DNA of 64,000 nt from Pseudorhodoplanes sp. (GTDB taxonomy: Bacteria > Pseudomonadota > Alphaproteobacteria > Rhizobiales > Xanthobacteraceae). The translations under genes were made by a program, and so were the position numbers. Under the pieces are notes generated by a model, which did not search any database, was not told the DNA's origin, and saw nothing but the letters and a program-made list of their open reading frames with translations. Below are positions 10,724-27,767 of this stretch, in pieces. The stretch lies in the NCBI GenBank assembly GCA_032027085.1, contig JAVSMS010000001.1, forward strand, positions 3,059,126 to 3,123,125, written 5' to 3'. The stretch's first letter is position 1; every line of letters begins with the position of its first letter.

Positions 10724-11211
10724 GAGCCGGCTCCGGCCGCGGTCTTCACGGATTCGATGATCTTTATGTAGCCGGTGCAACGGCAGAGATTACCGGACAG
10801 CGCTTCGCGAATGTCGCCATCGGTCGGCTTCGGATTTTTTCGCAGCAGCGCCTCGGCCGCCATGATCATACCTGGAGTGCAGAAACCGCATTGTGCGCCC
10901 AGCGCCTCGTGAAATGCGCGCTGCAGACGACTCGGCCGTCCTTGGGTGGCGAGGCTTTCGATGGTCTCGACCGATCGACCTTCGCAGCGGGCCGCGAGAG
11001 TGATGCAGGCAGGCACCGCTTCTCCGTCAACCAGGACGAGGCAGGCTCCGCATTCGCCACCGTCACAGCCGGACTTCACGCCGGTCAGACCGGCGGTATT
11101 ACGGAGATAATCGATGAGGAGAAGATTGTCTGCGACGGCGTCTTCGCGCCAGCGACCATTGACCTGAATTCTGAGCAATCGTTTTGCGGGAACGGCCCCT
11201 GCAGTTTGCAT
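10720..11211 (-). CDS. hcrC: 4-hydroxybenzoyl-CoA reductase, [2Fe-2S] gamma subunit
   Basis: A 163-residue protein with two [2Fe-2S] clusters: a plant-type set C49, C54, C57, C69 ([10 protein letters not shown]) and a helical set C108, C111, C143, C145 ([15 protein letters not shown]). This is the standard small subunit of molybdenum hydroxylases. The ATG at 11211 has an AGGAG/GGAG region just upstream; a frame running to 11304 crosses the FNR-type box and was rejected. It is the first gene of a five-gene minus-strand operon (gamma, alpha, beta, DUF2249, membrane protein), every junction being an overlap or a two-base gap. Confidence 0.88.
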
Positions 11212-11290
11212 TGGCTCCTGCTCCAGTGTGGCTGAGCACGGCCACATTCGACCGTATTGGCCATGCAGCCGCGTTCGGCCCTGGCGCACC

Positions 11291-11304
11291 ATGACTAAAG
11301 TCAA
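11291..11304. promoter_or_regulatory. FNR/CRP-type box ATGACtaaaGTCAA
   Basis: A near-perfect dyad (TTGAC-N4-GTCAT on the minus strand) 86 bp upstream of hcrC by its centre and about 109 bp upstream of the badL-like gene on the other strand. The half-sites are identical to those of the box at 12499-12512. It probably activates the reductase operon under anaerobic or hydroxybenzoate-induced conditions. Confidence 0.65.
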
Positions 11305-12577: not shown

Positions 12578-14149
12578 ATGCTCACACAACGTACCTATAA
12601 CGCCGCCGTTGATTTCGTCGATCGCAATGTGCTCGAAGGGCGTGGCAACAAGACGGCCTTCGTCGATCCGTCGCGAAATATCACATATGCGGAACTGCTG
12701 GACGGAGTGGCGCGTGTTCGACCGCTGCTTGAGCGGTTTGGCGTCGAGCGTGAAAATCGAGTTGCCTTGATCCTGCTCGACACGGTGGACTTCCCGCTTC
12801 TGTTCTGGGGAGCCATTCGTGCCGGCGTTATTCCGGTTCTGCTCAATACACGATTGACGGCTGACCAATATCGATTCCTGCTGGAGGACTCCCGCGCCAA
12901 GGTCGCTTTTGTTTCGGCAGCGTTGCTGTCGGTGGTGCAGGAAGCGGCGCAGGGTCTCTCCACGTTGAAACAAATTGTCGTGGTTGGTGGCGGCCCGGAA
13001 AATATGCCGCGCCTTGATGTTTTGCTTGCCGGTGTGAATGCGCAGGCCGCGCCGGCAGAGACCTGCGCCGACGAGGTCGCCTACTGGCTCTATTCGTCCG
13101 GCACGACGGGCGCACCAAAAGGGGTGATGCATGTTCATGCGACCCCGCGAAACGTGTCGATGCTTGCCGGACAAGGCCGCATTGGAATTCGTGAGGACGA
13201 CGTTGTCTTTTCCGCAGCGAAAATGTTCTTTTCCTACGGCCTCGGCAACGCAGTCCTCTGCCCGATGTGGGTCGGTGCGACGACGGTCCTCTATCCCGAA
13301 CGGCCGACCCCGGCCACCGTCTTCGAGACATTGAGCGGCTATCAGCCGACCATGTTCTATGCCGTGCCGACCCTCTATGCGGCGATTCTCCAAGACCCTG
13401 AATGCATACGTGAACGCGGGTCGCAGCGACTGCGCCTCTGCTTTTCGGCGGGGGAGCCGTTGCCGGCGCATATCGGTGAAATGTGGCGGGCGCGCTTTGG
13501 CATCGACATCGTGAACGGCGTCGGCTCGACTGAAATGGGCCATCTGTTTCTCACCAACATTCCGGGCGCGGTGGAATATGGCACTTCAGGCGTTCCGGTG
13601 AACGGCTACGATTTGCGCCTGGTGGACGAAACTGGACGCGAAGTCGGCGACGATGAAATCGGCGAGCTGCTGGTGCGCGGGGAATCGGCGGCCGCGGGCT
13701 ACTGGAACCAGCTCGCGCGGTCACGCCGCACATTCGAGGGTGAATGGACCCGCACTGGCGACAAGTACATGCGGCGCGCGGACGGGGTCTACATCTACAT
13801 CGGCCGCGCAGATGACATGTTCAAAGTGAGCGGAATCTGGGTGTCGCCCTTCGAGGTGGAGGCTGCTCTCATTGCTCATGAATATGTGCTCGAGGCCGCG
13901 GTTGTTCCGGCGCAGGACGATCATGGATTGATCAAGCCGAGAGCCTTCGTTGTGCTCAAGGAGCAGCAGGAGGCGTCGCAGCGCTACATCTATGAGGAGC
14001 TGAAAGTCCACGTAAAGCGCACGATCGGTCCATGGAAATATCCGCGTTGGATCGAATTTGTCGACAGTCTGCCAAAGACGGCAACCGGCAAAGTCCAGCG
14101 CTACATGCTGCGCGATCGGCCGCTCAACGGGGGGCGTTCGCATGGCTGA
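12578..14149 (+). CDS. Benzoate-type CoA ligase (hydroxybenzoate or aminobenzoate CoA ligase)
   Basis: A 523-residue adenylate-forming enzyme. The P-loop is [14 protein letters not shown], followed by [18 protein letters not shown], which is typical of benzoate/4-hydroxybenzoate/2-aminobenzoate CoA ligases. Later motifs are [18 protein letters not shown] and the catalytic lysine in [10 protein letters not shown]. It would activate an aromatic (or alicyclic) acid with ATP and CoA. The neighbouring hydroxybenzoyl-CoA reductase makes 4-hydroxybenzoate a good guess; 2-aminobenzoate or cyclohexanecarboxylate are alternatives given the downstream genes. No strong ribosome-binding site is seen before the ATG. 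It overlaps the next gene by 8 bp and probably leads a five-gene operon. Confidence 0.85.
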
Positions 14150-15362
14150 ACCGAAAATCCGCGCGCCCGATCTTGCTCATCTGAACTGGCCTTTCTTCGA
14201 AGAGGCGCATCGGGAATTTGCGCGGGGGCTCAGTGACTGGTCAGCGAGCGAAATCGACAAGCACGTCGATCACGCGGACGTGGATCACTCCTGCCGTGCC
14301 CTGGTGCGCGCGCTCGGCGATGCGGGTTGGCTGCGCGCGATTGTGCCGGCGGCTTATGGCGGATTGTCCGAGCAGATCGATGTGCGCCGGCTTTGTCTCG
14401 CTCGCGAAATTCTCGCGTGGCACGACAGTCTCGCCGATTTTGCATTTGCCATGCAGGGGCTGGGCACCGGTTCGATCTCGTTGTTTGGATCGGAGGCTGT
14501 GAAGAAGCGCTATCTGACAGCGACCTGCAGCGGCAGACAGATTGCAGCCTTCGCGTTGTCCGAACCGGAGGCCGGTTCAGACGTCGCCGCGCTGGCTGCG
14601 ACAGCGAGCGCGGATGGGGCCACGCATGTCCGGTTGAATGGGAAAAAGACCTGGATTTCGAACGGGGGGATTGCCGACCATTACATTGTCTTTGCCCGGA
14701 CGGGCGAGGGACCCGGAGTCAAAGGCTTGTCCGCCTTCGTGGTTGATGCGGATACGCCGGGGCTGTCGATCGACGGCCGTATTGAAATCACCGCGCCGCA
14801 TCCGCTGGCCACGCTGAAATTTTCAGATTGCCGCGTTCCGCTCAGCCAGCGACTCGGCGCGCCGGGCGAGGGCTTCAAGGTCGCCATGGCGACGCTCGAT
14901 ATTTTCCGCGCGACTGTTGGCGCGTCGGCCTTGGGGATGGCGCGCCGTGCGCTCGATGAGGCGCTTTGGCGAGCGCGAACGCGAAGATTGTTTGGAGCGC
15001 CGCTCGGCGACCTGCAGCTTTCACAGTCCGCGCTGGCCGACAGCGCGGTGGATATCGATGCCGCGGCGCTGCTCGTCTACCGAGCCGCCTGGGTCAAGGA
15101 CAGCGGCAAATCCCGAATCACACGCGAATCCTCGAGCGCGAAACTATTTGCAACAGAAATGGCGCAGCGCGCGATTGACCGCGCTGTGCAGATGTTTGGC
15201 GGGCATGGCGTGCGCAAAGGCATCAAGGTCGAGGCGCTTTATCGCGAGATCCGGGCATTGCGGATCTATGAGGGCGCCAGCGAGGTGCAGAAGGTGATCA
15301 TAGCACGCGAGATGCTTAAGGCGGATTCGGCTGAAACGAGGATCGAGCAAGCGGCAGGTTGA
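14142..15362 (+). CDS. Acyl-CoA dehydrogenase
   Basis: A 406-residue FAD-dependent acyl-CoA dehydrogenase: [10 protein letters not shown] in the middle domain, KTWISNGG, then QMFGGHGV and the C-terminal catalytic Glu region [12 protein letters not shown]. It would oxidise the alpha-beta bond of a CoA thioester, probably an alicyclic or dicarboxylic intermediate. The ATG at 14142 lies inside the end of the ligase gene with GGGGG before it. Its gene partners point to a beta-oxidation-like path for a ring or ring-cleavage product rather than general fatty-acid oxidation. Confidence 0.87.
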
Positions 15363-15363
15363 C

Positions 15364-16206
15364 ATGGCACATAAAGTGAAGACGCGGCTCCGGCCGGCAG
15401 ACACCGGCAGTATGTTGCGGATGACAGTCGCAGATGGCGTGGCGATGATCACGCTGGATCGACCGCCGGTGAACGCGATCAGCGAGGAATGGCTCTGCCA
15501 GTTCAACGGATTGCTCGATGAACTCAACAACCGTTCCGATTGGAGAATTCTGCATCTGCGGTCGGAACAGAAGGTGTTTTGCGCCGGCGCCGATCTCAAT
15601 GAAATGCGTGATCGAATGGGCACACCGGACGGTCCGGACCGCATGTACTCGTATGTGGCGGCGATCCAGCGGCTGTTCGCGCGGATTGAAACCTTGCCGC
15701 AGGTCACGATCGCCGAAATCGGCGGAGCCGCGCTGGGGGGCGGACTTGAACTTGCGCTCGCCTGCGATCTGCGCATCGCGGCGAACGAGGCCAAGCTGGG
15801 GCTGCCGGAGGCGCGCCTCGGTCTCATTCCGGGGGCCGGCGGAACCCAGCGCCTGACCAAGCTGTGCGGTCGGCCGGTTGCGGAGCGGCTGATCCTGGGT
15901 GCCGAAATCATCGATGGCGCCAAAGCGCACGAACTGGGTCTTGTGCAATGGGCGGCACCGTCCGCCAAGCTACCCGAGCGTGCGCTCGAAATCATCCGCC
16001 GCGTATCATCATTGCCGGCCGGCGCGCTCATTGCGAGCAAGATGTGCATCGCCGCAGCCAGCGACGGCGGGCGCAACGGCTATTCAGAAGAACTTGAAGC
16101 GACACGCCGCCTGCTGGCGAGCACCGACACCCGTCAGCGCGTGGAGGCGTTTCTCGCCGGCGTGACGAATGACTGGGGACAGATCAAGAAAGGAAACGCG
16201 CGATGA
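15364..16206 (+). CDS. Enoyl-CoA hydratase/isomerase family protein (BadK-like)
   Basis: A 280-residue crotonase-fold protein. The oxyanion-hole segments are present (FCAGADLNEM and GGAALGGGLELALACD), and both catalytic acidic positions are in place (LGLPEARLGLIPGAGG). This is the true hydratase pattern, so water addition to an enoyl-CoA is likely. It starts one base after the dehydrogenase stop and ends with an ATGA overlap with the next gene. In the Rhodopseudomonas benzoate pathway BadK does this step on cyclohex-1-ene-carboxyl-CoA; an equivalent step here is inferred. Confidence 0.82.
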   Translation: MAHKVKTRLRPADTGSMLRMTVADGVAMITLDRPPVNAISEEWLCQFNGLLDELNNRSDWRILHLRSEQKVFCAGADLNEMRDRMGTPDGPDRMYSYVAAIQRLFARIETLPQVTIAEIGGAALGGGLELALACDLRIAANEAKLGLPEARLGLIPGAGGTQRLTKLCGRPVAERLILGAEIIDGAKAHELGLVQWAAPSAKLPERALEIIRRVSSLPAGALIASKMCIAAASDGGRNGYSEELEATRRLLASTDTRQRVEAFLAGVTNDWGQIKKGNAR

Positions 16207-16949
16207 GGCTCGAGGGAAAAACTGCTCTGATCACTGGCGGGGCGTCAGGGATCGGCCGCGCGACCGTCCTGGAGTTCGCCCGCAGCGGCGCGTCTGTGAT
16301 ATGTGCCGACGTGAACGACGAGCAGGGAATGGCTCTGCAGCGAGAGGCCGCCAGCACAAACTTCGCCGTGGAGTTCGTCCATGTCGATCTTTCCAGCTCC
16401 GAGTCCATTCACGATTGCGCCTCGAAAGTGCTGAACAAGCATCCGCGCGTCGATATTCTCGTCAATGCCGCCGGCTGGAACGACATTCAGCCGTTTATCG
16501 AGAACAAGCCCGGTTATATCGATCGGGTGATTGCGATCAATCTCGGCGGGACCGTGCATCTGACACATGCACTGCTGCCGTCGATGATCGCCGCCGGGAA
16601 AGGCAAGATTGTCAATGTATCGAGCGACGCCGGGCGCGTCGGCAGCAGCGGTGAGACGGCCTACGCCGCCGCCAAGGGCGGAGTCATCGCGTTCACAAAA
16701 TCGCTCGCGCGCGAGATGGCCCGCCATTCCATCAATGTGAACTGCGTCTGCCCAGGGCCGACCGACACGCCCATGCTGCAATCGCGGCCGGAGAAGCTCA
16801 AGGAGGCGTTCGTCCGCGCGATTCCCTTCAAGCGGTTCGCCGAGCCGCGCGAAATTGCAGACGCTGTCCTGTTTTTTGCCGGACCGCGTTCCGACTATGT
16901 CACCGGCCAGGTGCTGAGTGTGAGCGGTGGTCTCACGTTTGCGGGTTGA
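16203..16949 (+). CDS. Short-chain dehydrogenase, BadH-like (hydroxyacyl-CoA dehydrogenase)
   Basis: A 248-residue SDR: TGGASGIG cofactor loop, NAAGWNDIQPF, SSDAGRVGSSGETAY with the YxxxK catalytic pair, and CPGPTDTPML. The RVGSSGE and CPGPTDT segments strongly recall BadH, the 2-hydroxycyclohexanecarboxyl-CoA dehydrogenase of R. palustris (comparison from memory). It would oxidise the hydroxyl group placed by the preceding hydratase. Translationally coupled to it by ATGA. Confidence 0.82.
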   Translation: MRLEGKTALITGGASGIGRATVLEFARSGASVICADVNDEQGMALQREAASTNFAVEFVHVDLSSSESIHDCASKVLNKHPRVDILVNAAGWNDIQPFIENKPGYIDRVIAINLGGTVHLTHALLPSMIAAGKGKIVNVSSDAGRVGSSGETAYAAAKGGVIAFTKSLAREMARHSINVNCVCPGPTDTPMLQSRPEKLKEAFVRAIPFKRFAEPREIADAVLFFAGPRSDYVTGQVLSVSGGLTFAG

Positions 16950-16964
16950 AAGAGGAGATTGATG

Positions 16965-17870
16965 ATGTCGAAAGATAAGGCCGTTGCTGCGAAGTCAGGG
17001 AACGGATCAGCCGCGCCCGACACGAGCAAGCGCTTCCGCCCGCAGCGTGTTGATTTTGCAAACTTCAAGCCGCGTCACTTCCTCTGGCAGCGCGACGGCA
17101 AGGTTGCGACGATCACGCTCAACCGGCCCGAACGCAAGAACCCGCTGACGCTGGAATCCTATGCTGAGTTGCGGGACATGTTTCGCGATCTGGTCTATGC
17201 GGATGACATCAAGACGATCGTGGTGACAGGCGCGGGCGAAAATTTCTGCTCCGGCGGCGACGTGCACGAGATCATCGGCCCTCTGGTCGAGATGCAGCGT
17301 CGCGGTGACATGAGTGGACTCCTTGCATTCACCCGGATGACAGGTGATCTCGTCAAGGCGATGCGCGCCTGTCCGCAACCGATTGTCACGGCGATCGATG
17401 GCGTCTGTGCCGGCGCGGGAGCCATCCTCGCCATGGCCTCCGATCTGCGTTACGGCACCGCCCGCAGCAAGACCGCCTTTCTGTTCGTGCGTGTCGGCTT
17501 GGCCGGCGCCGATATGGGAGCGTGCAACATGCTGCCTCGGATCGTCGGCGTCGGCCGCGCTTCCGAGCTGCTGTATACGGGCCGCTCGATGGACGGGAAC
17601 GAAGCGGAGCGCTGGGGTTTCTTCAACAAACTCTGCGAGCCGAACCGCGTGCTCGAAGAAGCGCAGGCGATGGCAAAATCACTGGCGGACGGTCCGACCT
17701 TCGCCCATGCCATGACCAAGCGCTGCATCCATCAGGAATGGAACATGGGCGTCGATGAATCGATCGAAGCCGAAGCGCAGGCGCAAGCCATCTGCATGCA
17801 AACCAAGGATTATGAGCGAGCCTACGAGGCGTTTGTCGCCAAGGCCCGACCGGCCTTCGAGGGCAACTGA
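16965..17870 (+). CDS. Second enoyl-CoA hydratase/isomerase family protein
   Basis: A 301-residue crotonase-fold protein with a 35-residue N-terminal extension rich in Lys/Ser. Oxyanion-hole segments are [12 protein letters not shown] and [15 protein letters not shown]. At the catalytic region it reads [13 protein letters not shown]; the usual second Glu is replaced, so chemistry other than simple hydration (isomerisation, ring hydrolysis as in BadI, or C-C cleavage) is possible. AGGAG lies 7 bases before the ATG at 16965; ATG at 16962 is an alternative. Proteins of this longer type occur in 2-aminobenzoyl-CoA and salicylyl-CoA clusters. Last gene of the operon. Confidence 0.78.
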
Positions 17871-18560: not shown

Positions 18561-19286
18561 ATGAGCGCTCTGACCCCGGAAGACATTGAAATCGTCTCGC
18601 GTATTGCCGTTTTCGGCGGCTTGCAGCCGGAAACCCGGAGTCGATTGATTGCTCCTGCCACTATTGTCACGCTCAAACATGGCCATCCGCTGTTCCGACA
18701 GGGCGATCCGGGAACCGCCTTCTTCATCGTGGTCGAAGGCTGGATCAAGCTGTTCCGGATCACCATTGCCGGCGAAGAGGCGGTCATCCACGTCCTGACC
18801 AAGGGCGAAAGCTTTGCCGAGGCAGTCGCCTTTACCGGCAATCGATATCCGGCAACGGCCGAAGCGGTCAGCAACGCGCGCGTGGTGCGCATCCCGGCTG
18901 ATCATGTCGTGCGATGCATACGCGATACGCCAGACATCGCCCTGGCCATGATCGCCTCGACGTCATCGCATCTGCGCTTGCTGGTGCAGCAGATCGAGCA
19001 GCTCAAGGCACAAAGCGGCATACAGCGCGTCGCCGAATTTTTGGTGTCCCTGTGTCCGAGCGACTGCGGAACGCACACGATCGCGTTGCCTTACGACAAG
19101 ACACTGATCGCAGGACGTCTCGGCATCAAGCCCGAATCGCTGTCCCGCACCTTTGCCAAGCTGAGAGCGGTGGGCGTGGAAGTGCGCGCGTCGCATGTGA
19201 TCGTCAAGGAAGTGGCAAAACTTCGCGATCTTGCGGACAGCGAGCACATCAGGATTCCGAGTAACGGGGGCTGCGCGCGGCGCTAA
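18561..19286 (+). CDS. CRP/FNR-superfamily regulator without FNR cysteines (DNR/HbaR-like)
   Basis: A 241-residue regulator: cyclic-nucleotide-type beta barrel in residues 15-125 (GDPGTAFFIVVEG), a dimerisation helix, and an HTH ending in KPESLSRTFAKLRAVGV, whose SR..A recognition residues read TTGA-type half-sites. The N-terminal cysteine cluster that senses oxygen in FNR is absent, so it is not an Fe-S oxygen sensor. Two readings fit the context: a DNR-type haem/NO sensor serving the respiratory genes, or an HbaR-type activator of 4-hydroxybenzoate genes. It is the obvious reader of the six boxes in this window. Confidence 0.82.
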   Translation: MSALTPEDIEIVSRIAVFGGLQPETRSRLIAPATIVTLKHGHPLFRQGDPGTAFFIVVEGWIKLFRITIAGEEAVIHVLTKGESFAEAVAFTGNRYPATAEAVSNARVVRIPADHVVRCIRDTPDIALAMIASTSSHLRLLVQQIEQLKAQSGIQRVAEFLVSLCPSDCGTHTIALPYDKTLIAGRLGIKPESLSRTFAKLRAVGVEVRASHVIVKEVAKLRDLADSEHIRIPSNGGCARR

Positions 19287-19799: not shown

Positions 19800-20216
19800 T
19801 CAGCGCAACAGTGACCTGATCTTTGGCAGTACGGCGGCCTGCCAGCGGCTGGCGCCGGACTGCTGTTCGACAATTTCTCCGTCGGCGACAACGAGCCAGA
19901 GTGGAACCCCCGTGCCGGGGCTGAGGCGGTCGCGGAAAGCGCGAAGATCAGCCGGCCAATATTCGTCCTTGAGGAGATCGAACAACGCCGGAGACTTCAC
20001 TTCGCGGTAGGTGATTCTCTGGAATTCCGCTCCCGCCTGGAAAAGCGCGCCGTCCTCGCGCTGCCATTTGCGGCAGGGCGCACAATCTTCCGCGCCAACG
20101 TAGAGAAGGGTGACGTCGTGCGCGCCGGGTGATGGGGAATTGCTTGTGGCAATGACCCACGTGGTCACGATGCCCGCGATTGCAAATCCAGCGATCACAC
20201 TCTTCCGGCTGCGCAT
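19800..20216 (-). CDS. Membrane-anchored thioredoxin-fold protein
   Basis: A 138-residue protein with an N-terminal membrane segment (SVIAGFAIAGIVTTWVIA) and a thioredoxin-like domain carrying CAPC in the context GAEDCAPCRKWQ. Probably a periplasmic thiol reductase or a copper/haem assembly helper. The ATG at 20216 has GGAG 9 bases upstream; the longer frame to 20333 runs through the FNR-type box and was rejected. It is divergent from the heme-copper operon and shares its box, so a role in maturing the CuA or cytochrome c centres is a reasonable guess. Confidence 0.6.
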   Translation of the reverse strand: MRSRKSVIAGFAIAGIVTTWVIATSNSPSPGAHDVTLLYVGAEDCAPCRKWQREDGALFQAGAEFQRITYREVKSPALFDLLKDEYWPADLRAFRDRLSPGTGVPLWLVVADGEIVEQQSGASRWQAAVLPKIRSLLR

Positions 20217-20280
20217 CAGCCGCGTCTCCGGCGTCTTGTCCCCATCTTGAAAATGATCTTTGACCGGCCACCAAGGTGCC

Positions 20281-20294
20281 TTGACTGATGTCAA
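20281..20294. promoter_or_regulatory. FNR/CRP-type box TTGACtgatGTCAA
   Basis: A perfect dyad 58 bp (centre) before the first gene of the heme-copper operon and 71 bp before the divergent thioredoxin-like gene. The spacing suits a class II activator site if transcription starts near 20329. Confidence 0.75.
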
Positions 20295-20345
20295 GTACGC
20301 ATCGCGCGAGGAGGAGTTAGTTTTAGCAAACAATAGAGGTTTGCC

Positions 20346-20525
20346 ATGACGACGAAGGATTCAAGTCCGGCTGCGGCTCACCAAGATGAGAGTGAACCCA
20401 TCCCGCTGATGCAGCGGATCCTCGACAACCCGCTTCTGCTGCTTTTCCTCGGCGTAGCGATTCCAACGCTGCTCTATCATTTGTGGGCCGTGATGGAGAT
20501 CGTGGCCATACCGCTCGCGAAATAA
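20346..20525 (+). CDS. Small one-helix protein, possible oxidase subunit IIa-like
   Basis: A 59-residue ORF (ATG 20346, TAA 20523-20525) with a polar N-terminus and one hydrophobic helix (NPLLLLFLGVAIPTLLYHLW). It opens the heme-copper operon, 24 bp before subunit II, directly after an FNR-type box. B-family (ba3-type) oxidases have a similar one-helix subunit IIa/CbaD, and that is the proposed role; sequence alone is too short to prove it. Confidence 0.6.
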   Translation: MTTKDSSPAAAHQDESEPIPLMQRILDNPLLLLFLGVAIPTLLYHLWAVMEIVAIPLAK

Positions 20526-20549
20526 CCTAGGCAGTCAAGGGGAAACATT

Positions 20550-21131
20550 ATGGCCGTCGCACCGCCCGAACACCGAATCTGGTGGAAGGAGCCTATCGAA
20601 AAGGTCGAGCTGATCTGGATCGGTCTCGCCTTCCTGTGGTGCCTGTTCATGTTCGGCTTCATGATCGCGTGGCACTTCATCGGCCAGCAGAATCTCAGCC
20701 CCGAAGCCTACAGAATTTCGCCTTCGGCCTATGAACAGAAGGTCGACGAGTTCACCAAGAAGCACCAGGTGCGCGAGGAGCAGGGCGTGCCGGTGGTGAA
20801 GCCGCCGGCGGGTTCGGACATCTATATTCTCGGCAGACTCTGGCAATGGTGGCCGATCCTGGAATTGGAACAGGGGCAGAGCTACCGCTTCCATATTTCG
20901 TCGATCGACTGGCAGCACGGCTTTTCGCTGCAACCGATCAATATCAATCTTTCCGTTCATCCAAACTATGAGCATGTGCTTACCCTGACGCCGACTGACG
21001 TTGGCGAATTCGGCATCATCTGCAACGAGTTTTGTGGGATCGGCCATCACCAGATGACCGGCAAGGTTTACGTCGTTCAAAAGAAGGCCGAAACGGGGTC
21101 ACGCATGGCTGAAGGGGAGAAGCGGCAATGA
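20550..21131 (+). CDS. Heme-copper enzyme subunit II with CuA site
   Basis: A 193-residue subunit II with one N-terminal helix (residues 20-45) and a periplasmic cupredoxin domain. All CuA ligands are present: H123 (DWQHGFS), then C158, E160, C162, H166 and M169 in CNEFCGIGHHQM. The single anchor and short length match the B-family (ba3) type. It takes electrons from cytochrome c and passes them to subunit I. AAGGGGA precedes the ATG, and the stop overlaps the subunit I start as ATGA. Confidence 0.88.
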   Translation: MAVAPPEHRIWWKEPIEKVELIWIGLAFLWCLFMFGFMIAWHFIGQQNLSPEAYRISPSAYEQKVDEFTKKHQVREEQGVPVVKPPAGSDIYILGRLWQWWPILELEQGQSYRFHISSIDWQHGFSLQPININLSVHPNYEHVLTLTPTDVGEFGIICNEFCGIGHHQMTGKVYVVQKKAETGSRMAEGEKRQ

Positions 21132-22849
21132 CAGCGGAAACCACCGTTGGCGTCGCCAGAGCGCCGTCCGAGTCGCGGACCTGCCAGTTCACCGGACTGC
21201 GCGTCGACATCGCCGCGCAGACTTTGATCAAGGCAAACGCCGTCGCTGCGGTCATTTTTCTTGCGATAGGAGGTTTGATGGGCCTCCTGGTCGCGCTCAC
21301 GCGCTGGCCCGCCGTGCACCTTCTGCCGGCGGAATGGTTCTATCTCGTGCTCACCGGACATGGAGCCAACGTTCTCCTGTTCTGGATCATCTTCTTTGAG
21401 ATGGCGGTGCTTATCTTTGCATCCACCATTCTGTTGAATGCCAGACAGGTAATGCCGAAACTCGCCTGGCTCGGTTTTGTCCTCATGGTCGTTGGCGCGC
21501 TGATGACGAATGTCTCGGTGCTGCAGGGCGAATCAACGGTGATGTTCACCTCCTATCCGCCGATGATGGCCAAGCCGCATTTCTATCTGGGCTTGATCCT
21601 GTTCGCCGTCGGCGCGCTCATCGTCACCGGATTGTTCTTCGCTAACCTGATCGTGGCGAAAGAGGAGGGCGCATTCCAGGGCTCGATGCCGCTGGTGACC
21701 TTCGGGGCGATGACCGCGGCCATCATCGCCGTGTGGACGATCTTGTCAGGCGCGGCGATCCTGCTTCCGACATTGCTGTGGTCAATGGGGTGGATTTCTG
21801 ACGTCGATACGCTGCTCTACAAGGTGGTGTGGTGGGGCATGGGCCACGCATCGCAGCAGGTCAACGTGTCGGCCCATGTGTCGCTGTGGTATCTGGTCGG
21901 CGCGCTGGTCCTGGGAGCGAAGCCGCTGTCGGAAAAGGTCAGCCGGACCGCATTCTTTCTCTACATTCTCTTCCTGCAGCTTGCCTCGGCGCACCACCTG
22001 CTTGCAGAGCCGGGCTTGTCCGTCAGCTGGAAGATCGTGAACACCAGCTACATGATGTACCTCGCCGTGCTCGGGTCGATGATCCACGGTCTCACGGTGC
22101 CGGGATCATTTGAAGCCGCGCAGCGCAAGAACGGCTATGACAAGGGCGTGTTCGAGTGGCTGCGCAAATGCCCGTGGGGGAATCCGGCCTTTTCCGGAAC
22201 ATTCCTCTCGCTCGTGATGTTCGGGTTCATCGGCGGTATTTCCGGTGTTGTGCTCGGCACAGAGCAGCTCAATGTGCTCATGCACAACACGATCTACGTG
22301 CCCGGCCATTTTCACGGCACGGTGGTCACCGGCACGACGCTCGCCTTCATGGCGGCAACCTATCTGGTTCTGCCGTTGATCTTCCAGCGCGAAATCATCT
22401 GGCCGAAGCTGGCCAAGATCCAACCCTATCTGTTCGGGATCGGAGCTGCCGGGATTTCGCTGTTCATGATGGGGGCTGGCACGCTGGGCGTTCCGCGCCG
22501 TCACTGGGACATCACGTTCAGTGATGCGGAGCTGTCTTTCGCACACTCGGCCGGCGCTTTCCTGATGATGGGGCTCAACGGTATCTTCGCCATCATCGCG
22601 GCTCTCGGCGGTATCCTCTATGTGCTGATCGTAGTCGGCACGGTATTGTGGGGGCAGAAGATCACGAGCGGTCACAAGCTGACCTTCCCGCTGCATGCGG
22701 GTGGTGGCGCCGTTGCCTCGCATTACGGCAGCTACATGCCGCCCAAGCTGCCTGGGACGATTGTGCTGGTGGCGATCTTCTTCGTCTCCTTCGTGCTCTA
22801 CTACTTCATCAACTGGAAGTATCTCTCTGAACTCTGGCTGTTCCGGTAA
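21128..22849 (+). CDS. Heme-copper oxidoreductase subunit I lacking the active-site Tyr (NO-reductase-like)
   Basis: A 573-residue B-family-like subunit I. The six histidine ligands are present: H78 (TGHGANVL) and H396 for the low-spin haem, H394 for the high-spin haem (VPGHFHGTVV), H240, H289 and H290 for the active-site metal. Aligned by eye with Thermus ba3 (WWTGHPIVY), this protein reads WWGMGHASQQV, so the Tyr four residues after the ligand is Gln244. Without that Tyr oxygen reduction by the usual mechanism is not expected, and groups such as eNOR and sNOR are described as NO reductases with this change. Operon with heme o synthase, SCO, hemerythrin and cytochrome c supports a real respiratory enzyme. 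Confidence 0.82.
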   Translation: MTAETTVGVARAPSESRTCQFTGLRVDIAAQTLIKANAVAAVIFLAIGGLMGLLVALTRWPAVHLLPAEWFYLVLTGHGANVLLFWIIFFEMAVLIFASTILLNARQVMPKLAWLGFVLMVVGALMTNVSVLQGESTVMFTSYPPMMAKPHFYLGLILFAVGALIVTGLFFANLIVAKEEGAFQGSMPLVTFGAMTAAIIAVWTILSGAAILLPTLLWSMGWISDVDTLLYKVVWWGMGHASQQVNVSAHVSLWYLVGALVLGAKPLSEKVSRTAFFLYILFLQLASAHHLLAEPGLSVSWKIVNTSYMMYLAVLGSMIHGLTVPGSFEAAQRKNGYDKGVFEWLRKCPWGNPAFSGTFLSLVMFGFIGGISGVVLGTEQLNVLMHNTIYVPGHFHGTVVTGTTLAFMAATYLVLPLIFQREIIWPKLAKIQPYLFGIGAAGISLFMMGAGTLGVPRRHWDITFSDAELSFAHSAGAFLMMGLNGIFAIIAALGGILYVLIVVGTVLWGQKITSGHKLTFPLHAGGGAVASHYGSYMPPKLPGTIVLVAIFFVSFVLYYFINWKYLSELWLFR

Positions 22850-22879
22850 TCGGCACCGCCGGACTAAAAGGAAGGAATT

Positions 22880-23752
22880 ATGCTCGCCGCGCTTCGCATC
22901 ACCTGCTCGCTCCTGAAGCTCAGGATCGGTGTTGCGATCGCGGCGAGTGCACTTGCGGGTATTGCAGCGGCGGAGGGACCACATCTGTCCCTGATTCAGG
23001 CGTCAGCACTGACATTGGCGGTGCTTGGGGCCTCCGGCGCTGCTGGCGCGTTCAATCACTATTATGAACGCGAGACAGACCGCCAGATGACGCGCACGCG
23101 GTCGCGGCCCTTTGCCAGCGGTCTTCTGCGGCCGAGCATAGGGTGGCCGATCTCCTTTGCTGTTTTGCTGATCGCGTCGCTGGCGCTTGCGGCTGCTGCA
23201 GGCGGCCTTGTGTCGTCGTTGTATGTATTCCTTGGCGCCTTTACCTATGGCGTCGTCTATACGGTGTGGCTCAAGCGACGCAGCGTCTGGAACATTGTAT
23301 TGGGCGGCTTGGCCGGAAGTTTCGCGGTGCTGGCCGGTGCGGCCGCTGTGAATCCCACATTGCAGCTTTATCCGGTGGTGCTGGCGCTCGTGCTGTTCCT
23401 GTGGACGCCGCCGCATTTCTGGAGCCTGGCAGCGGCCAAGGCGGACGACTATGCCAAGGCTGGCGTGCCGATGCTGCCGGTTCGGGTCCCGGAGCGGGTC
23501 TGGACGCTCGCCATTCTGCTGCACACGGCGGCTCTCGTCGCAATCTCCCTGATTCCGCTCTGGTATGGGAGAGGCCCGATCTACGGCATCGGTGCAGGTC
23601 TGGGCGGAGCCTGGTTTCTCTGGAAGAGCGTTGAGCTCTACCTGCGGCCCAACCGGCAGACAGCGATTAGCAATTTCTTCGCCTCGCTGATCCAGTTGGT
23701 GCTTCTCGTTCTCGGGGTGGTGCTCGACTCGGTCCTGCAACCCTTCGGTTAG
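22880..23752 (+). CDS. ctaB: Protoheme IX farnesyltransferase (heme o synthase)
   Basis: A 290-residue UbiA-superfamily membrane enzyme with about 8 helices. Both Asp-rich regions are present: NHYYERETDRQMTRTRSRP near residue 60 and the second loop KADDYAKAGVPMLPV. It adds a farnesyl group to haem b, giving haem O, the precursor of haem A. Lying 30 bp after subunit I, it says the heme-copper enzyme probably carries haem O or A. It may be a second, dedicated copy; whether a general ctaB exists elsewhere cannot be seen. Confidence 0.87.
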   Translation: MLAALRITCSLLKLRIGVAIAASALAGIAAAEGPHLSLIQASALTLAVLGASGAAGAFNHYYERETDRQMTRTRSRPFASGLLRPSIGWPISFAVLLIASLALAAAAGGLVSSLYVFLGAFTYGVVYTVWLKRRSVWNIVLGGLAGSFAVLAGAAAVNPTLQLYPVVLALVLFLWTPPHFWSLAAAKADDYAKAGVPMLPVRVPERVWTLAILLHTAALVAISLIPLWYGRGPIYGIGAGLGGAWFLWKSVELYLRPNRQTAISNFFASLIQLVLLVLGVVLDSVLQPFG

Positions 23753-23755
23753 GCC

Positions 23756-24559
23756 ATGCGCAGAACCGCGCTTCTTGCCCTCTGGATAGCTGCGTCGCTC
23801 GCGGCGCCGTCGGCGGCGGCAGCAGATACGGCGGCGGGCCGACTCGATCCGCAGCGCGTCATCGAGCGGAGCGAGGCGGCCATCGGGCGCAGCATGGGCG
23901 CCTATTCGCTGACCGCCACGACCGGACAGACCATTTCGCTTGCGGCGCTGCGGGACAAGCCGCTCGTCGTGAGCATCGTCTATTCCGCCTGCAGTTCAGT
24001 CTGCCCAATCACAACGCAGCATCTGATCAGCGCCGTGGAGCAGGCGAACCAGCTGTTCGGCCCGGACCGATTCAATGTGCTCACCATCGGCTTTGATGCG
24101 CGCAACGACACACCTGCGCGGATGGCGCATTTCGCTTCGACCCAGGGCATCACGGCCCCGAACTGGAAAGTCGCGAGCGCCGACGCCGGGACCATCAGCG
24201 CCGTGCTTCGGGACTTGGGCTTCAGCTATGCAAGCGTTGCCGGTGGTTTCGACCATATCACGCAGACCACCATTCTGGACCGGGACGCCAAAATCTATCG
24301 TCATGTCTATGGCGACGAATTTCCAATTCGCATGTTCATGGAACCGCTGCGCGATGTCGTCCATGGCAGATCGGCGCCTCTGACAGTCTCCGGGTTTGTG
24401 GACCGGCTCAAGTACATCTGCACAACCTATGATCCGGGGGCAGGCCGCTACAAAACCGACTATGGGCTGGTATTCGGGAGCGCAATGGGCGGCATTTTGC
24501 TGTTGATGTTCGGCCTTGTGATTCTGCGGGAGTGGCGCAAGACGTGTCGCAGCGCATGA
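23756..24559 (+). CDS. SCO1/SenC-family copper chaperone with C-terminal membrane anchor
   Basis: A 267-residue protein with a cleavable-looking signal peptide (residues 1-23), a thioredoxin-like SCO domain with the copper ligands C79 and C83 (CSSVC) and H167 (GGFDHITQT), and a C-terminal helix (residues about 240-258). SCO proteins load the CuA centre of subunit II. It starts 3 bp after ctaB. The C-terminal anchor is less usual than the N-terminal anchor of most SCO proteins. Confidence 0.85.
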   Translation: MRRTALLALWIAASLAAPSAAAADTAAGRLDPQRVIERSEAAIGRSMGAYSLTATTGQTISLAALRDKPLVVSIVYSACSSVCPITTQHLISAVEQANQLFGPDRFNVLTIGFDARNDTPARMAHFASTQGITAPNWKVASADAGTISAVLRDLGFSYASVAGGFDHITQTTILDRDAKIYRHVYGDEFPIRMFMEPLRDVVHGRSAPLTVSGFVDRLKYICTTYDPGAGRYKTDYGLVFGSAMGGILLLMFGLVILREWRKTCRSA

Positions 24560-24633: not shown

Positions 24634-26241
24634 GTGATCGGCGCAGTGCGGGCCGTCTTACGGCGAGGATTCGAACTGATCGAACAGCCGTTCGACGCGG
24701 TATTTGGGCCGTCGCTCAATCCCTTGAAGCAGCTCGGCGCTCTCGGCTTTTTTTTCTTTTGGATCGTCGCCGTCAGCGGCATCTATCTGTTCATTTTTTT
24801 CGATACCGGCATCGAGCAGGCATATTCATCCGTCCAGTATATGACGGTGGATCACTGGTATCATGCCGGCGTGATGCGCAGCCTGCATCGTTACGCCTCA
24901 GACCTGATGGTCGTGATGGTGGCGACTCATCTGCTGCGTGAATTTGCATACGACCATTATCGCGGAGCGCGCTGGTTCTCCTGGTTCACCGGACTGCCGA
25001 TCATTTGGCTGCTCTATGCGAGCGGCATTACCGGCTATTGGCTGGTCTGGGACCGGCTCGCCCAGTATGTCGCCGTCGTGTCATCCGAACTGCTCGACTG
25101 GCTGCCGATCTTCGGCGAGCCGATCGCGCGCAATTTCATATCGACCGGCACACTCACCAGCCGCTTCTTCACGCTGATGGTGTTCATGCATGTCGCCGTT
25201 CCGCTGTTCCTGCTGTTTATCATGTGGGTTCACATCATCCGGATTTCGCGTCCGAAGGTGAATCCGCCGCGCATGCTCGCCGGCCTTTCGCTCGCGGCCC
25301 TGATCGCCGTGTCGCTCTGGAAGCCGGCGGTGTCGCAAGGCCCGGTGGATCTCAGCAAGGTGACGGCTGAAATCGGCCTCGACTGGTTCTTTCTGCCGCT
25401 CTATCCGTTGACCGATATCTGGGGAAATGGGAGTGTGTGGGCCTTTCTCGCTGCGTTTTCGGTGATGATCGGCTTGATGCCATGGCTGCCGCCGCTGCGG
25501 CGAAGCAAGGTGGCAGAGGTCAATCTTGATCACTGCAACGGCTGCACCCGCTGCGTCGAGGACTGCCCCTACGAAGCCATCAGGATGGTTCCGCGCACCG
25601 ACGGGTTGCCGTTCCCGGCGCAGGCGCAGGTGAATCCGTCGCTGTGCGTTTCGTGCGGCATCTGTGCGGGCGCGTGCCCATCGTCGACGCCATTCCGGCG
25701 CACCGAAGATCTGGTCACGGGCATTGATCTGCCGGACTATTCCATCAAGATGCTGCGCGAGCGGACAATCGCGGCCTGTCAGGCGTTGCAGGGCCCCACC
25801 AAGGTCCTCGTTTTTGCATGCGAGCACGGAGGCGCCGCAGGACGCGTCGATGGTACGGTTCACCTGCCGTGTGTGGCCATGGCGCCGCCTTCGCTGATCG
25901 ACTTTGTGCTGAGCCGCAAGCTGGCCGACGGTGTGGTGATGGCCGGTTGCGCGGAATCGGCGGGCTTCAACCGTCTCGGCATTGAGTGGACGAAGCAGCG
26001 CTTCGCCGGCGCGCGTGATCCCTATTTGCGGGCGCGGGTTCCGCGCGAGCGCGTAGGCACGGTCTGGGCGTCGGCGCTGGCACAGAGCAAGGCCAATTCT
26101 GAAATCGCCGCCTTCACCGAGCGGGTCGCGGCCCTGCCGCCCGTGACATTGCAGTCGCCGCTGCCGCCGAGCAGCCCTTCGCCACGGCTGCGGTCGCAGC
26201 CTGCGCGTGTTTCGGAACCGGCGGAGGTGGCGGATGACTAG
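24634..26241 (+). CDS. Cytochrome b / 2x[4Fe-4S] ferredoxin / MvhD-like fusion protein
   Basis: A 535-residue fusion starting at GTG with AGGAG 8 bases upstream. Residues 30-285 are a cytochrome b N-terminal domain with two H-x13-H pairs (H85/H99, H186/H200) for two b haems. Residues 295-350 hold two [4Fe-4S] sites (C301, C304, C307, C311; C338, C341, C344, C348). Residues 385-465 resemble MvhD/FrhD, the electron-transfer subunit of hydrogenase-heterodisulfide reductase complexes, with C396, C413 and C439 but not the full five-Cys set. The tail is Pro/Ser-rich. It could move electrons between a soluble donor and the quinone pool or cytochrome c. It lacks the cytochrome b C-terminal domain and Qo motif. 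Confidence 0.8.
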   Translation: MIGAVRAVLRRGFELIEQPFDAVFGPSLNPLKQLGALGFFFFWIVAVSGIYLFIFFDTGIEQAYSSVQYMTVDHWYHAGVMRSLHRYASDLMVVMVATHLLREFAYDHYRGARWFSWFTGLPIIWLLYASGITGYWLVWDRLAQYVAVVSSELLDWLPIFGEPIARNFISTGTLTSRFFTLMVFMHVAVPLFLLFIMWVHIIRISRPKVNPPRMLAGLSLAALIAVSLWKPAVSQGPVDLSKVTAEIGLDWFFLPLYPLTDIWGNGSVWAFLAAFSVMIGLMPWLPPLRRSKVAEVNLDHCNGCTRCVEDCPYEAIRMVPRTDGLPFPAQAQVNPSLCVSCGICAGACPSSTPFRRTEDLVTGIDLPDYSIKMLRERTIAACQALQGPTKVLVFACEHGGAAGRVDGTVHLPCVAMAPPSLIDFVLSRKLADGVVMAGCAESAGFNRLGIEWTKQRFAGARDPYLRARVPRERVGTVWASALAQSKANSEIAAFTERVAALPPVTLQSPLPPSSPSPRLRSQPARVSEPAEVADD

Positions 26242-26737
26242 TTGGCTGCGACATGCCGGCCAGTTCATATTGATCGCCGCGCTGTTTGCGGCTGTCGCGG
26301 CCTTTTCGAACTGGCCGACCTACCGGACCATTCCTGAGGGACATGCGGTGATCATGCTCAGCTTCGTGCACGGCTCTGATCGACGCGCGGAATGCCGCCG
26401 CCTCAGTCCCCAGGAGATTGCAAAGCTGCCTCCCAACATGCGGCGTGTGCAGGATTGCCCGCGCGGCCGGCGGCCGATCTATATTGAGCTGGATCTGGGA
26501 GGGCAGACGGCATTCAAGGCCAGCCTGGCCCCGACCGGCATCGCCGGCGACGGTCCCTCGAAAGTCTACGAGCGCTTCGTTGTCCCCGCTGGCGAACACG
26601 ACATTGCGGTACGTATGCGTGATACATCTCGTGCCGAGGGTTTTGATCACGCCCGCAAGGAGCGGGTGACGCTTGCCGCCGAGCAGATGCTTGTGGTCGA
26701 CTTCCGGGCTGAGAGCGGTGAATTCGTATTCCGCTGA
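26234..26737 (+). CDS. Membrane-anchored protein of unknown function
   Basis: A 167-residue protein with one N-terminal membrane helix (FILIAALFAAVAAFSNW) and a soluble domain, presumably periplasmic, with two cysteines (ECRRL, QDCPRG) and a beta-rich C-terminus (VPAGEHDIAVRMRD). I do not recognise the family. It overlaps the cytochrome b fusion gene by 8 bp (ATGACTAG), so it is translationally coupled to it and probably part of the same complex. An in-frame upstream start at 26207 is inside the previous gene and unlikely. Confidence 0.65.
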   Translation: MTSWLRHAGQFILIAALFAAVAAFSNWPTYRTIPEGHAVIMLSFVHGSDRRAECRRLSPQEIAKLPPNMRRVQDCPRGRRPIYIELDLGGQTAFKASLAPTGIAGDGPSKVYERFVVPAGEHDIAVRMRDTSRAEGFDHARKERVTLAAEQMLVVDFRAESGEFVFR

Positions 26738-26749
26738 GAGGCGAGGGTC

Positions 26750-27154
26750 ATGGCGCTGTTGCAATGGAAAGACCAGTACAGTGTCGGCATCGAGGCCGTC
26801 GATCATGAGCATCGCGAGCTGATTGACCTGATCAACCGCTTGCATGAGGAGTTCACAACCAAGCGCTCAAAAGATACGGTTGAGGCGTTCTTCGGCGATC
26901 TGTTCCGAGGCATTTCCGCTCACTTTGCGCTCGAGGAGCGGTTCATGCGTGAGCAGCGCTACGGCGAATTACCTCAGCACAAGGCGGATCACGAGCGCCT
27001 GCTCGACGAAATCCGCGACATCATGGAAATGACGCGGGAGAACGATAGCCTCGGCCAGGCCGAACTGGCCAGGCGGCTTGATGCATGGTTCTCGCGGCAT
27101 TTCGAAACCCACGACGCGGCCCTGCACAAGGCGCTTGGTACGCATCCGCATTGA
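26750..27154 (+). CDS. Bacteriohemerythrin
   Basis: A 134-residue hemerythrin: WKDQYSVGIEAVDHEHREL at the N-terminus (H21), H58 and E62 (HFALEERF), H77 and H81 (HKADH), H117 and a later His/Asp (HFETHD). Complete di-iron ligand set. It is 12 bp after the unknown membrane-anchored gene, in the respiratory operon. Oxygen or nitric oxide binding and delivery is the likely role. It is the second hemerythrin in the window, less divergent than the one at 17939. Confidence 0.88.
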   Translation: MALLQWKDQYSVGIEAVDHEHRELIDLINRLHEEFTTKRSKDTVEAFFGDLFRGISAHFALEERFMREQRYGELPQHKADHERLLDEIRDIMEMTRENDSLGQAELARRLDAWFSRHFETHDAALHKALGTHPH

Positions 27155-27266: not shown

Positions 27267-27377
27267 GGCACTTCAGCTGCGTCATGGGGGATAGCTTCTC
27301 TCAAACGAATGCCGTCACTGCCGCATGAGAAGCGGGAGAGGTCGGCAGGGGACGTGAACATCAACGCGGGGCTGAGC

Positions 27378-27767
27378 ATGGTGACGATCAGACTTTTGGC
27401 GGCTTTCTCTGTGATTGCGCTCGCACCGAGCCTCGCTTTCGCGGACGACCTTGCGGCCGGTGCAAAAAGTTTCAAGAAATGCACGGCGTGCCACGATGTT
27501 GGCCCGTCGGCGAAGAACAAGGTCGGCCCGCTCCTGAACAATCTGGACGGCCGCAAGTCCGGTACGGTTGAAGGCTATAATTATTCGGCCGCCAACAAGA
27601 ATTCCGGCATCGTCTGGAACAACGAGACATTCCTTGAATACATCAAGGACCCGAAGGCCAAGATTCCCGGCACCAAAATGGTGTTTGCTGGCATCAAGAA
27701 CGAAACGGAAGCGCGCGATCTCTGGGCCTATATCAAGCAGTTCGGTTCGGACGGGCAGAAGAAATAG
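27378..27767 (+). CDS. Class I cytochrome c (c2/c550 type)
   Basis: A 129-residue protein with a signal peptide (residues 1-22, ending AFA), one haem site C35-T-A-C38-H39, and the axial Met at M101 (IPGTKMVFAGI), as in mitochondrial-type cytochromes c2/c550. It is a soluble periplasmic electron carrier and the natural donor to the CuA subunit encoded 6 kb upstream. The ATG at 27378 was chosen because it starts the signal peptide; an upstream in-frame start at 27309 would add 23 non-hydrophobic residues. A terminator follows. Confidence 0.87.
   Translation: MVTIRLLAAFSVIALAPSLAFADDLAAGAKSFKKCTACHDVGPSAKNKVGPLLNNLDGRKSGTVEGYNYSAANKNSGIVWNNETFLEYIKDPKAKIPGTKMVFAGIKNETEARDLWAYIKQFGSDGQKK

Follow-up and report, generated by a model that had tools for sequence, protein, structure and literature searches.

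We have analysed a stretch of 64,000 nucleotides (the window) in which one operon very probably, with a likelihood that we put at roughly 90%, encodes a nitric oxide reductase of the eNOR type that serves a denitrifying alphaproteobacterium, a prediction drawn from the residues of the catalytic subunit, its clade and its gene context. The original prediction was of a NO reductase and not an oxygen reductase, and this is supported, by homology and context, by the glutamine found at the tyrosine position, by the tree and by the association and linkage with nirS. PMC8879329 already reports eNOR from Alphaproteobacteria, so that the enzyme of the window would belong to a known type. The features are listed in Table 1.

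Table 1. Features of the eNOR operon and its surroundings (positions within the window)
Feature	Position	Strand	Observation
CRP/FNR-family regulator, candidate operon regulator	18561..19286	+	matched in 33/80 loci, either strand
FNR/NnrR-type palindrome TTGACTGATGTCAA	20281..20294	.	51 bases before first gene
Small subunit, 59 aa, a single hydrophobic segment	20346..20525	+	76/77 loci with enough flank
Subunit II: cupredoxin domain with CuA, plus a single hydrophobic segment	20550..21131	+	79/79 loci
Subunit I, predicted catalytic haem-copper subunit of eNOR	21128..22849	+	intact ORF, 573 aa
Gln244 codon, replacing the cross-linked Tyr	21857..21859	+	alignment with ba3 oxidase
CtaB, haem o synthase	22880..23752	+	TIGR01473, 253.6 vs cut-off 210.3 bits; 75/78 loci
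SCO1/SenC copper chaperone	23756..24559	+	PF02630, 44.6 vs cut-off 22.8; 75/75 loci
Fusion protein: b6-like dihaem cytochrome b, ferredoxin with 2x[4Fe-4S], FlpD/MvhD-like domain	24634..26241	+	73/73 loci
176-aa protein, N-terminal hydrophobic segment, conserved His55, Cys63, Cys84	26207..26737	+	68/68 loci
Bacteriohemerythrin (right)	26750..27154	+	NF033749 above cut-off; 65/66 loci of the 80-locus scan set
Cytochrome c-550 (CycA-like), possible electron donor	27309..27767	+	NF043008 below cut-off; matched in 20/80 loci

Subunit I is matched by the Pfam COX1 model (210.8 bits, above cut-off), none of the NCBIfam oxidase models reaches its own cut-off with it, and its top solved structure is the ba3 oxidase of T. 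thermophilus (phmmer, E = 1.2e-41). The six histidine ligands are all at the predicted places (His78, His240, His289, His290, His394 and His396) and recur in 80/80 relatives, i.e., those kept from one scan; by homology with ba3 they would bind the haems and CuB. Four residues past the first CuB histidine, Gln244 aligns with the ba3 tyrosine, Tyr237, which is cross-linked in the Thermus enzyme, and on the strength of this alignment it is expected to face the active site. The replacement of the cross-linked tyrosine had also been noted, and glutamine occupies the position in 80/80 relatives. In the tree set all 30 eNOR rows have it, the 14 B-family and three A-family rows have Tyr and the seven cNOR/qNOR rows have Glu. 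As the pair Gln-Gln at 243-244 is kept in 80/80 homologues, it is neither chance nor a sequencing error. At the C-family cross-link position (presumably six residues before the histidine pair) both C-family rows from the window genome carry Tyr, which none of the 80 relatives has there, all of them having Leu283.

The tree set includes eNOR-like, A-family, B-family and cNOR/qNOR rows, with no sNOR, bNOR or characterised eNOR sequence (the last presumably from Rhodothermus marinus), and in it the Gln sequences form a single clade (support 100/99, 30 rows), sister to the B-family oxygen reductases, which make up a separate 100/99 clade (n = 14). Phylogeny had been proposed at the outset as a check, and it puts subunit I beside and not inside these oxygen reductases. 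The Gln homologues of Thermus and Thermomicrobium, 43-46% identical to the window sequence, fall in the same clade. According to PMC8756737 (Table A4), the mark at the Tyr position is Gln in eNOR, Asn in sNOR and CuANOR and Asp in gNOR; PMC3475470 also gives Asn for the CuANOR of Bacillus azotoformans. Both eNOR and sNOR had been named originally as groups lacking the tyrosine; a Tyr-less NOR stands, and because sNOR has Asn at this position (PMC8756737), the assignment is refined to eNOR. Other families were rejected: gNOR (Asp expected, Gln found in the window and its relatives), cNOR/qNOR (Glu expected at the aligned position, and the window sequence lies outside them in the tree), the A and B families of oxygen reductases (Gln244 where Tyr is expected four residues after the first CuB histidine) and the C family (Leu283 where Tyr is expected).

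The class sample comprised 240 Alphaproteobacteria genomes, with a limited number of candidates per genome scored in the first pass, and eNOR was found in 15 of them, 14 of which carry a NirS-like gene (the exception being G124). With the genome of the window left out, NirS is present in 13/14 eNOR carriers vs 3/225 others (p = 8e-18), a NirS call being a match to the Pfam cytochrome d1 family at E<1e-140 (E<1e-110 where stated), in which NirN and NirF score too. In one of the three genomes with NirS and without eNOR (G171), the match is interrupted by an internal stop. The two genes lie 1.8-13.0 kb apart on the same contig in 8/13 carriers and on different contigs in the remaining five, one of these being an 8-contig assembly; only 5/80 scan stretches, with a flank of about 6 kb at most, contain a nirS-like ORF. 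Of the 17 NirS genomes in the class sample, 14 have eNOR and five a cNOR/qNOR match, which makes eNOR the commoner NirS partner there, and 11 of the 14 with both NirS and eNOR, own genome included, are without a cNOR/qNOR match. The association of cNOR/qNOR with NirS is weaker (4/16 vs 12/223, p = 0.015), and eNOR carriers do not avoid cNOR/qNOR (2/14 vs 14/225), as judged by NorB searches of which one used the divergent NorB of the window genome, which may miss genes, and another a canonical NorB. Among 49 genomes drawn by choice from the 80 scan loci, mainly the longer ones, 35 have NirS (E<1e-140), 11 NirK above cut-off and 38 either of them, and seven, in a set with many draft assemblies, have neither NirS (E<1e-110) nor NirK above cut-off. 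One of the two T. thermophilus plasmid homologues examined is ca. 3 kb from nirS. The window genome itself has NirS, NirK, NosZ and a second NOR-like (NorB-like) gene, with nirS 1.7 Mb away from eNOR.

There are two other ways to read the enzyme itself. One would be a high-affinity oxygen reductase that cleaves the O-O bond without a cross-linked tyrosine and reduces NO as a side reaction, something possible for B-family oxidases; the nearest solved relative is indeed the ba3 oxygen reductase, and a similar case is argued for the Nitrosomonas sNOR in PMC6967387. We consider this very unlikely, given the lack of Tyr at both the A/B and the C cross-link positions in the 80 relatives, the skewed distribution of nirS described above, and the six A- or C-type oxidases that the genome already has; moreover, PMC8879329 and PMC11388526 state that NO reduction by eNOR has been demonstrated. 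The other alternative is an sNOR or bNOR (CuANOR), whose layout of CuA subunit II, B-like subunit I and SenC/SCO is alike, with ctaB adjoining one B. bataviensis CuANOR cluster (PMC3475470). Asn would then be expected, however, where 80/80 sequences have Gln, and we hold this identity to be extremely improbable; as neither group is represented in the tree, its exclusion rests on residue 244.

The eNOR type is credited to Hemp and Gennis (2008) in PMC8756737; its alphaproteobacterial form is ‘ba3-a1’. The window operon resembles it in the Gln for Tyr, the six histidines, the CuA subunit II, the separate clade near the B oxidases and the operonic SCO, as well as in its occurrence in Alphaproteobacteria with a cd1 nitrite reductase (PMC8879329 and PMC6431628), and no difference was found for subunits I and II. 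With the B-family (ba3) oxygen reductase it shares the fold, the ligands, the CuA subunit and the positions of Tyr255 and Ser317 (or Thr), but it has Gln244 for Tyr, Gln243 for Val, Asn246 for Trp and His320 for Thr. The sNOR system (norSY-senC) is similar in its B-like subunit I, CuA and SenC and differs in the Asn already mentioned (PMC8756737) and in its accessory genes, of which PMC6967387 names senC.

The genes run in the order small transmembrane protein, subunit II, subunit I, CtaB, SCO, fusion, 176-aa protein and hemerythrin. The originally delimited unit (20346-24559) was right from its start to SCO and wrong in its end, since the operon continues to 27154. Subunit II scores below the cut-offs of its Pfam and NCBIfam matches; even so, the full CuA site claimed for it is complete by motif (CNEFCGIGHHQM starting at residue 158, plus His123). 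The ctaB and SCO genes that had been recognized are confirmed, above NCBIfam and Pfam cut-offs, respectively. A conserved set of accessory genes accompanies eNOR in Alphaproteobacteria. The fusion has FlpD, Fer4 and Cytochrome_B domains in 27/27 members, is similar to structurally solved MvhD, ferredoxin and cytochrome b6 proteins, and occurs in the same 15/240 genomes as eNOR. All four haem-b histidines are kept in 99/99 rows of its alignment, in which some genomes enter twice (e.g., L077 and L190, which look alike by coordinates), and of its FlpD cysteines Cys444 is found in 96/99, with a Gly at one of the four in the window protein. The 176-aa protein has no Pfam or NCBIfam family above cut-off. 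In other classes the fusion gene is absent near eNOR in 4/14 stretches with enough flank and the right hemerythrin gene in all 20 stretches. In the fetched eNOR stretches of Thermus and Thermomicrobium, unlike in the window, nothing matches the fusion gene, the 176-aa gene or the hemerythrin gene, so eNOR can manage without the first two. Literature searched at the title and abstract level, which left the main eNOR paper (doi 10.1073/pnas.2316422121) uncovered, gave no account of an eNOR operon with this fusion. A table in PMC8756737 lists a cytochrome b6 - Fe-S - FlpD protein (RME88945.1), whose architecture, as given there, unites these three domain types in a single chain.

The eNOR-linked fusion raises a testable question, namely how the enzyme is fed or assembled. 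Our tentative reading, to which we give somewhat less than even odds, is an electron-input branch in which a cytosolic reductant feeds FlpD/ferredoxin and the electrons then cross two haems b to reach either quinone or eNOR itself, as suggested by the domains of the fusion, its solved relatives and its shared distribution with eNOR. Against this, the CuA retained by eNOR implies that its donor is a cytochrome c, the window protein has Gly in place of one FlpD cysteine, the fusion is missing in the stretches from other classes just mentioned, and its topology comes from hydropathy and homology only. The alternative, possible although we rather doubt it, is an assembly device in which the fusion would act as a membrane Cu(II)/thiol reductase and the 176-aa protein as its periplasmic partner, feeding SCO and the CuA/CuB sites. 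CcoG, which serves the cbb3 oxidase, offers a parallel, and the two genes directly downstream of SCO, together with the single hydrophobic segment and the conserved His and Cys residues of the 176-aa protein, would fit. However, a dihaem b with an FlpD domain exceeds what a copper reductase needs, and the Thermus and Thermomicrobium stretches match neither gene. It is unlikely that the alphaproteobacterial eNOR forms the catalytic part of a larger complex that always includes the fusion as a subunit, and in which cytosolic low-potential or bifurcated electrons drive NO reduction independently of bc1-cytochrome c; such a reading is limited to Alphaproteobacteria by the four fusion-free stretches.

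For the eNOR enzyme we propose that a periplasmic cytochrome c would hand electrons to the CuA of subunit II, from where they would pass to a low-spin haem (His78/His396) and on to the haem-CuB site, with His394 as proximal ligand and His240, His289 and His290 holding CuB. There 2 NO + 2e- + 2H+ would give N2O + H2O, a coupling that should not need the O-O cleavage donor that Tyr provides in oxygen reductases and that Gln244 replaces. Sequence comparison finds conserved polar residues at the K-type channel positions, with Glu20 of subunit II in 120/120 rows, and the protons are probably cytoplasmic, entering through a modified channel of this type (Glu20 of subunit II; Tyr255, Ser317 and His320 of subunit I). 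Haem O (or A) would come from CtaB, and copper from SCO.

The setting of NO chemistry originally described around the operon holds in part. The right hemerythrin belongs to the operon; the NnrS-like gene (17.7 vs a Pfam cut-off of 28 bits, ca. 13 kb off, matched in 1/80 homologous loci) and the left hemerythrin (22.3 vs 25.3, matched in 2/80) are unconserved and were rejected as parts of it. The cytochrome c-550 gene is not a fixed member either (Table 1). An FNR/NnrR-type regulator probably makes transcription respond to NO or to scarce oxygen, and a box of the form TTG[AC][CT]N4[AG][GT]CAA is found within 250 bp upstream in 44/76 loci vs 2.8% of random 250-bp stretches, drawn from the same loci with one random seed.

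The operon put forward in the original prediction is real, and its subunit I is an intact reading frame with the six histidines and Gln244 at the positions claimed. Subunit I matches the COX1 family with 210.8 bits, and the closest solved chains are those of the Thermus thermophilus ba3 oxidase, to which His240 aligns with the first CuB histidine and Gln244 with the tyrosine that we take to be the cross-linked one. The CuA motif of subunit II is also complete, though the family models score this protein under their cut-offs. A contig scan gave 480 stretches encoding relatives, and in all of the best 80 of these 480 the six histidines and Gln-Gln at 243-244 are kept. Gln-Gln is likewise invariant in the 30 eNOR rows of the tree set (16 from the window and the best-80 loci, 11 from other classes and three from Thermus and Thermomicrobium), where the B-family (14/14) and A (3/3) rows have Val-Tyr and the cNOR/qNOR rows (7/7) Val-Glu. 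The C-family tyrosine presumably lies six residues ahead of the His pair; both C rows from the window's own genome have Tyr there, and the eNOR relatives Leu (80/80 of the best 80). Neither known cross-linked tyrosine is therefore present in these sequences, with Gln at the A/B position and Leu at the C position. At the position aligned with His396 (HFH), a ligand of the low-spin haem, both Thermus homologues have Lys, an unusual haem ligand for a haem-copper enzyme.

In a maximum-likelihood tree of 56 rows, which covers eNOR, A, B, C, cNOR and qNOR but no sNOR, bNOR, gNOR or nNOR sequence, the window's subunit I falls inside a clade of 30 Gln rows (support 100/99), outside the B-family oxygen reductases; this clade is sister to the 14 B-family rows (100/99; 98/94 for the pair), and A, C, cNOR and qNOR are separate from both. 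Long-branch warnings concern, among others, the Thermomicrobium row, the genome's own NorB and the A, cNOR and qNOR stems; the window's terminal branch is short. According to PMC8756737, the residue at the Tyr position is Gln in eNOR, Asn in sNOR and CuANOR, Asp in gNOR and Glu in cNOR and qNOR, and eNOR occurs in Alpha- and other Proteobacteria. PMC8879329 equates the alphaproteobacterial "ba3-a1" with eNOR, with cytochrome c as donor; PMC6431628 had classed ba3-a1 as a degenerate B oxidase that has lost the Tyr and whose operon includes SCO. PMC11388526 counts eNOR among the biochemically characterised NORs. We consider it very probable (about 90%) that the window enzyme is an eNOR, which is a known kind, previously reported from Alphaproteobacteria.

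Glu20 of subunit II (120/120 rows) and Tyr255 and Ser317 of subunit I (both 80/80) occupy, with His320, what we take to be the ba3 K-channel positions; His320 is found in 80/80 eNOR rows, whereas the B family has Thr (7/7 rows). Judged from sequence, these residues would agree with, but do not prove, the single proton channel predicted for eNOR in PMC8756737.

Of the operon limits proposed, 20346-24559, the start stood and the end did not, the conserved unit reaching 27154. Among the best-80 loci with enough flank we found the small protein in 76/77, subunit II in 79/79, CtaB in 75/78, SCO in 75/75, the cytochrome b-ferredoxin-FlpD fusion in 73/73, the 176-aa protein in 68/68 and the hemerythrin in 65/66. 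In other classes of the phylum eNOR was found in 30/398 genomes; of 20 stretches compared, 10 have the fusion and the 176-aa gene, six end too early, and four with enough flank (L175, L178, L182, L183) have no match to either near eNOR. The hemerythrin gene is absent from all 20 (L169-L188), and the fusion and 176-aa genes from the Thermus and Thermomicrobium eNOR stretches. A protein encoded divergently to the operon has one hydrophobic segment and, by eye, a CxxC motif; it has a match in 15/80 loci, all Pfam families scoring under cut-off.

It is the fusion accompanying eNOR that merits specialist attention. Within one set of 240 Alphaproteobacteria genomes, over which four gene searches were run, eNOR was found in 15 (13 family codes), and the full-length fusion in exactly these 15, matches dropping from 556 to 65 bits at the next one. 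Its four haem-ligand histidines (13 residues separate the two of each pair), its eight ferredoxin cysteines, Cys396 and Cys413 are kept in 99/99 rows, Cys439 in 98/99 and Cys444 in 96/99 (the window has Gly444, and L022 and L047 likewise lack this Cys). A profile search gave cytochrome b6, ferredoxins and MvhD as its solved-structure relatives. Hydropathy marks four hydrophobic segments; b6 homology suggests six helices, so that the Fe-S part would be cytoplasmic. The fusion may serve in electron input or cofactor assembly.

The partner of ba3-a1 in two genomes would be cd1 nitrite reductase, according to PMC8879329. In the same 240 genomes NirS-like proteins (E<1e-140) were found in 17, 14 of them with eNOR; leaving out the window's genome, NirS is present in 13/14 eNOR carriers vs. 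3/225 others (Fisher p = 8e-18), the two genes lying 1.8-13.0 kb apart on one contig in 8/13 and on separate contigs in 5/13. A cNOR/qNOR match is absent from 11 of the 14 genomes with both, and two of the three NirS genomes without eNOR have another NOR. cNOR/qNOR is enriched with NirS too (4/16 vs. 12/223, p = 0.015) and is no rarer among eNOR carriers (2/14 vs. 14/225 others). Among 49 genomes of the best-80 loci, NirS was found in 35 at E<1e-140 (39 at E<1e-110), NirK above cut-off in 11 and neither in seven; 41 lack a match to NorB, the query being the window genome's own. A nirS-like ORF lies in 5/80 best-80 stretches and in 2/20 from other classes (L177 and L180, two further NirS-linked eNOR copies), and one of two T. 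thermophilus plasmid eNOR copies compared lies next to nirS.

The sequence TTGACTGATGTCAA ahead of the operon is a box of the kind that presumably belongs to FNR/NnrR-type regulators; 44/76 loci have such a box in the 250 bp preceding the first gene vs. 2.8% of random stretches.

The window's genome (one contig, 4.97 Mb) encodes, besides eNOR, NirS, NirK, NosZ, a NorB-like gene and six A- or C-type oxidases. NirK (above cut-off) and the NirS-like gene occur together there (G000:C1, at 623673 and 1403901). The NorB-like protein has 33% identity to canonical NorB and a long tree branch. By eye, genes on both strands of the window encode putative 4-hydroxybenzoyl-CoA reductase subunits, benzoate-CoA ligase and beta-oxidation enzymes, and look like a setting for anoxic breakdown of aromatics.

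Coordinates of the features discussed (in the window unless a locus or contig is named)
Feature	Position	Remark
Putative aromatics genes	7413-11304 (-), 12578-17870 (+)	
Divergent protein	19800-20333 (-)	
Box TTGACTGATGTCAA	20281-20294	
Subunit II	20550-21131	CuA motif
Subunit I	21128-22849	573 aa, intact ORF
Cytochrome b-ferredoxin-FlpD fusion	24634-26241	Gly444
Divergent NorB-like protein (L008)	G000:C1:850512-851786	
T. thermophilus plasmid eNOR homologue	L090 9986-11671	HFK
T. thermophilus plasmid eNOR homologue	L091 7986-9668	HFK
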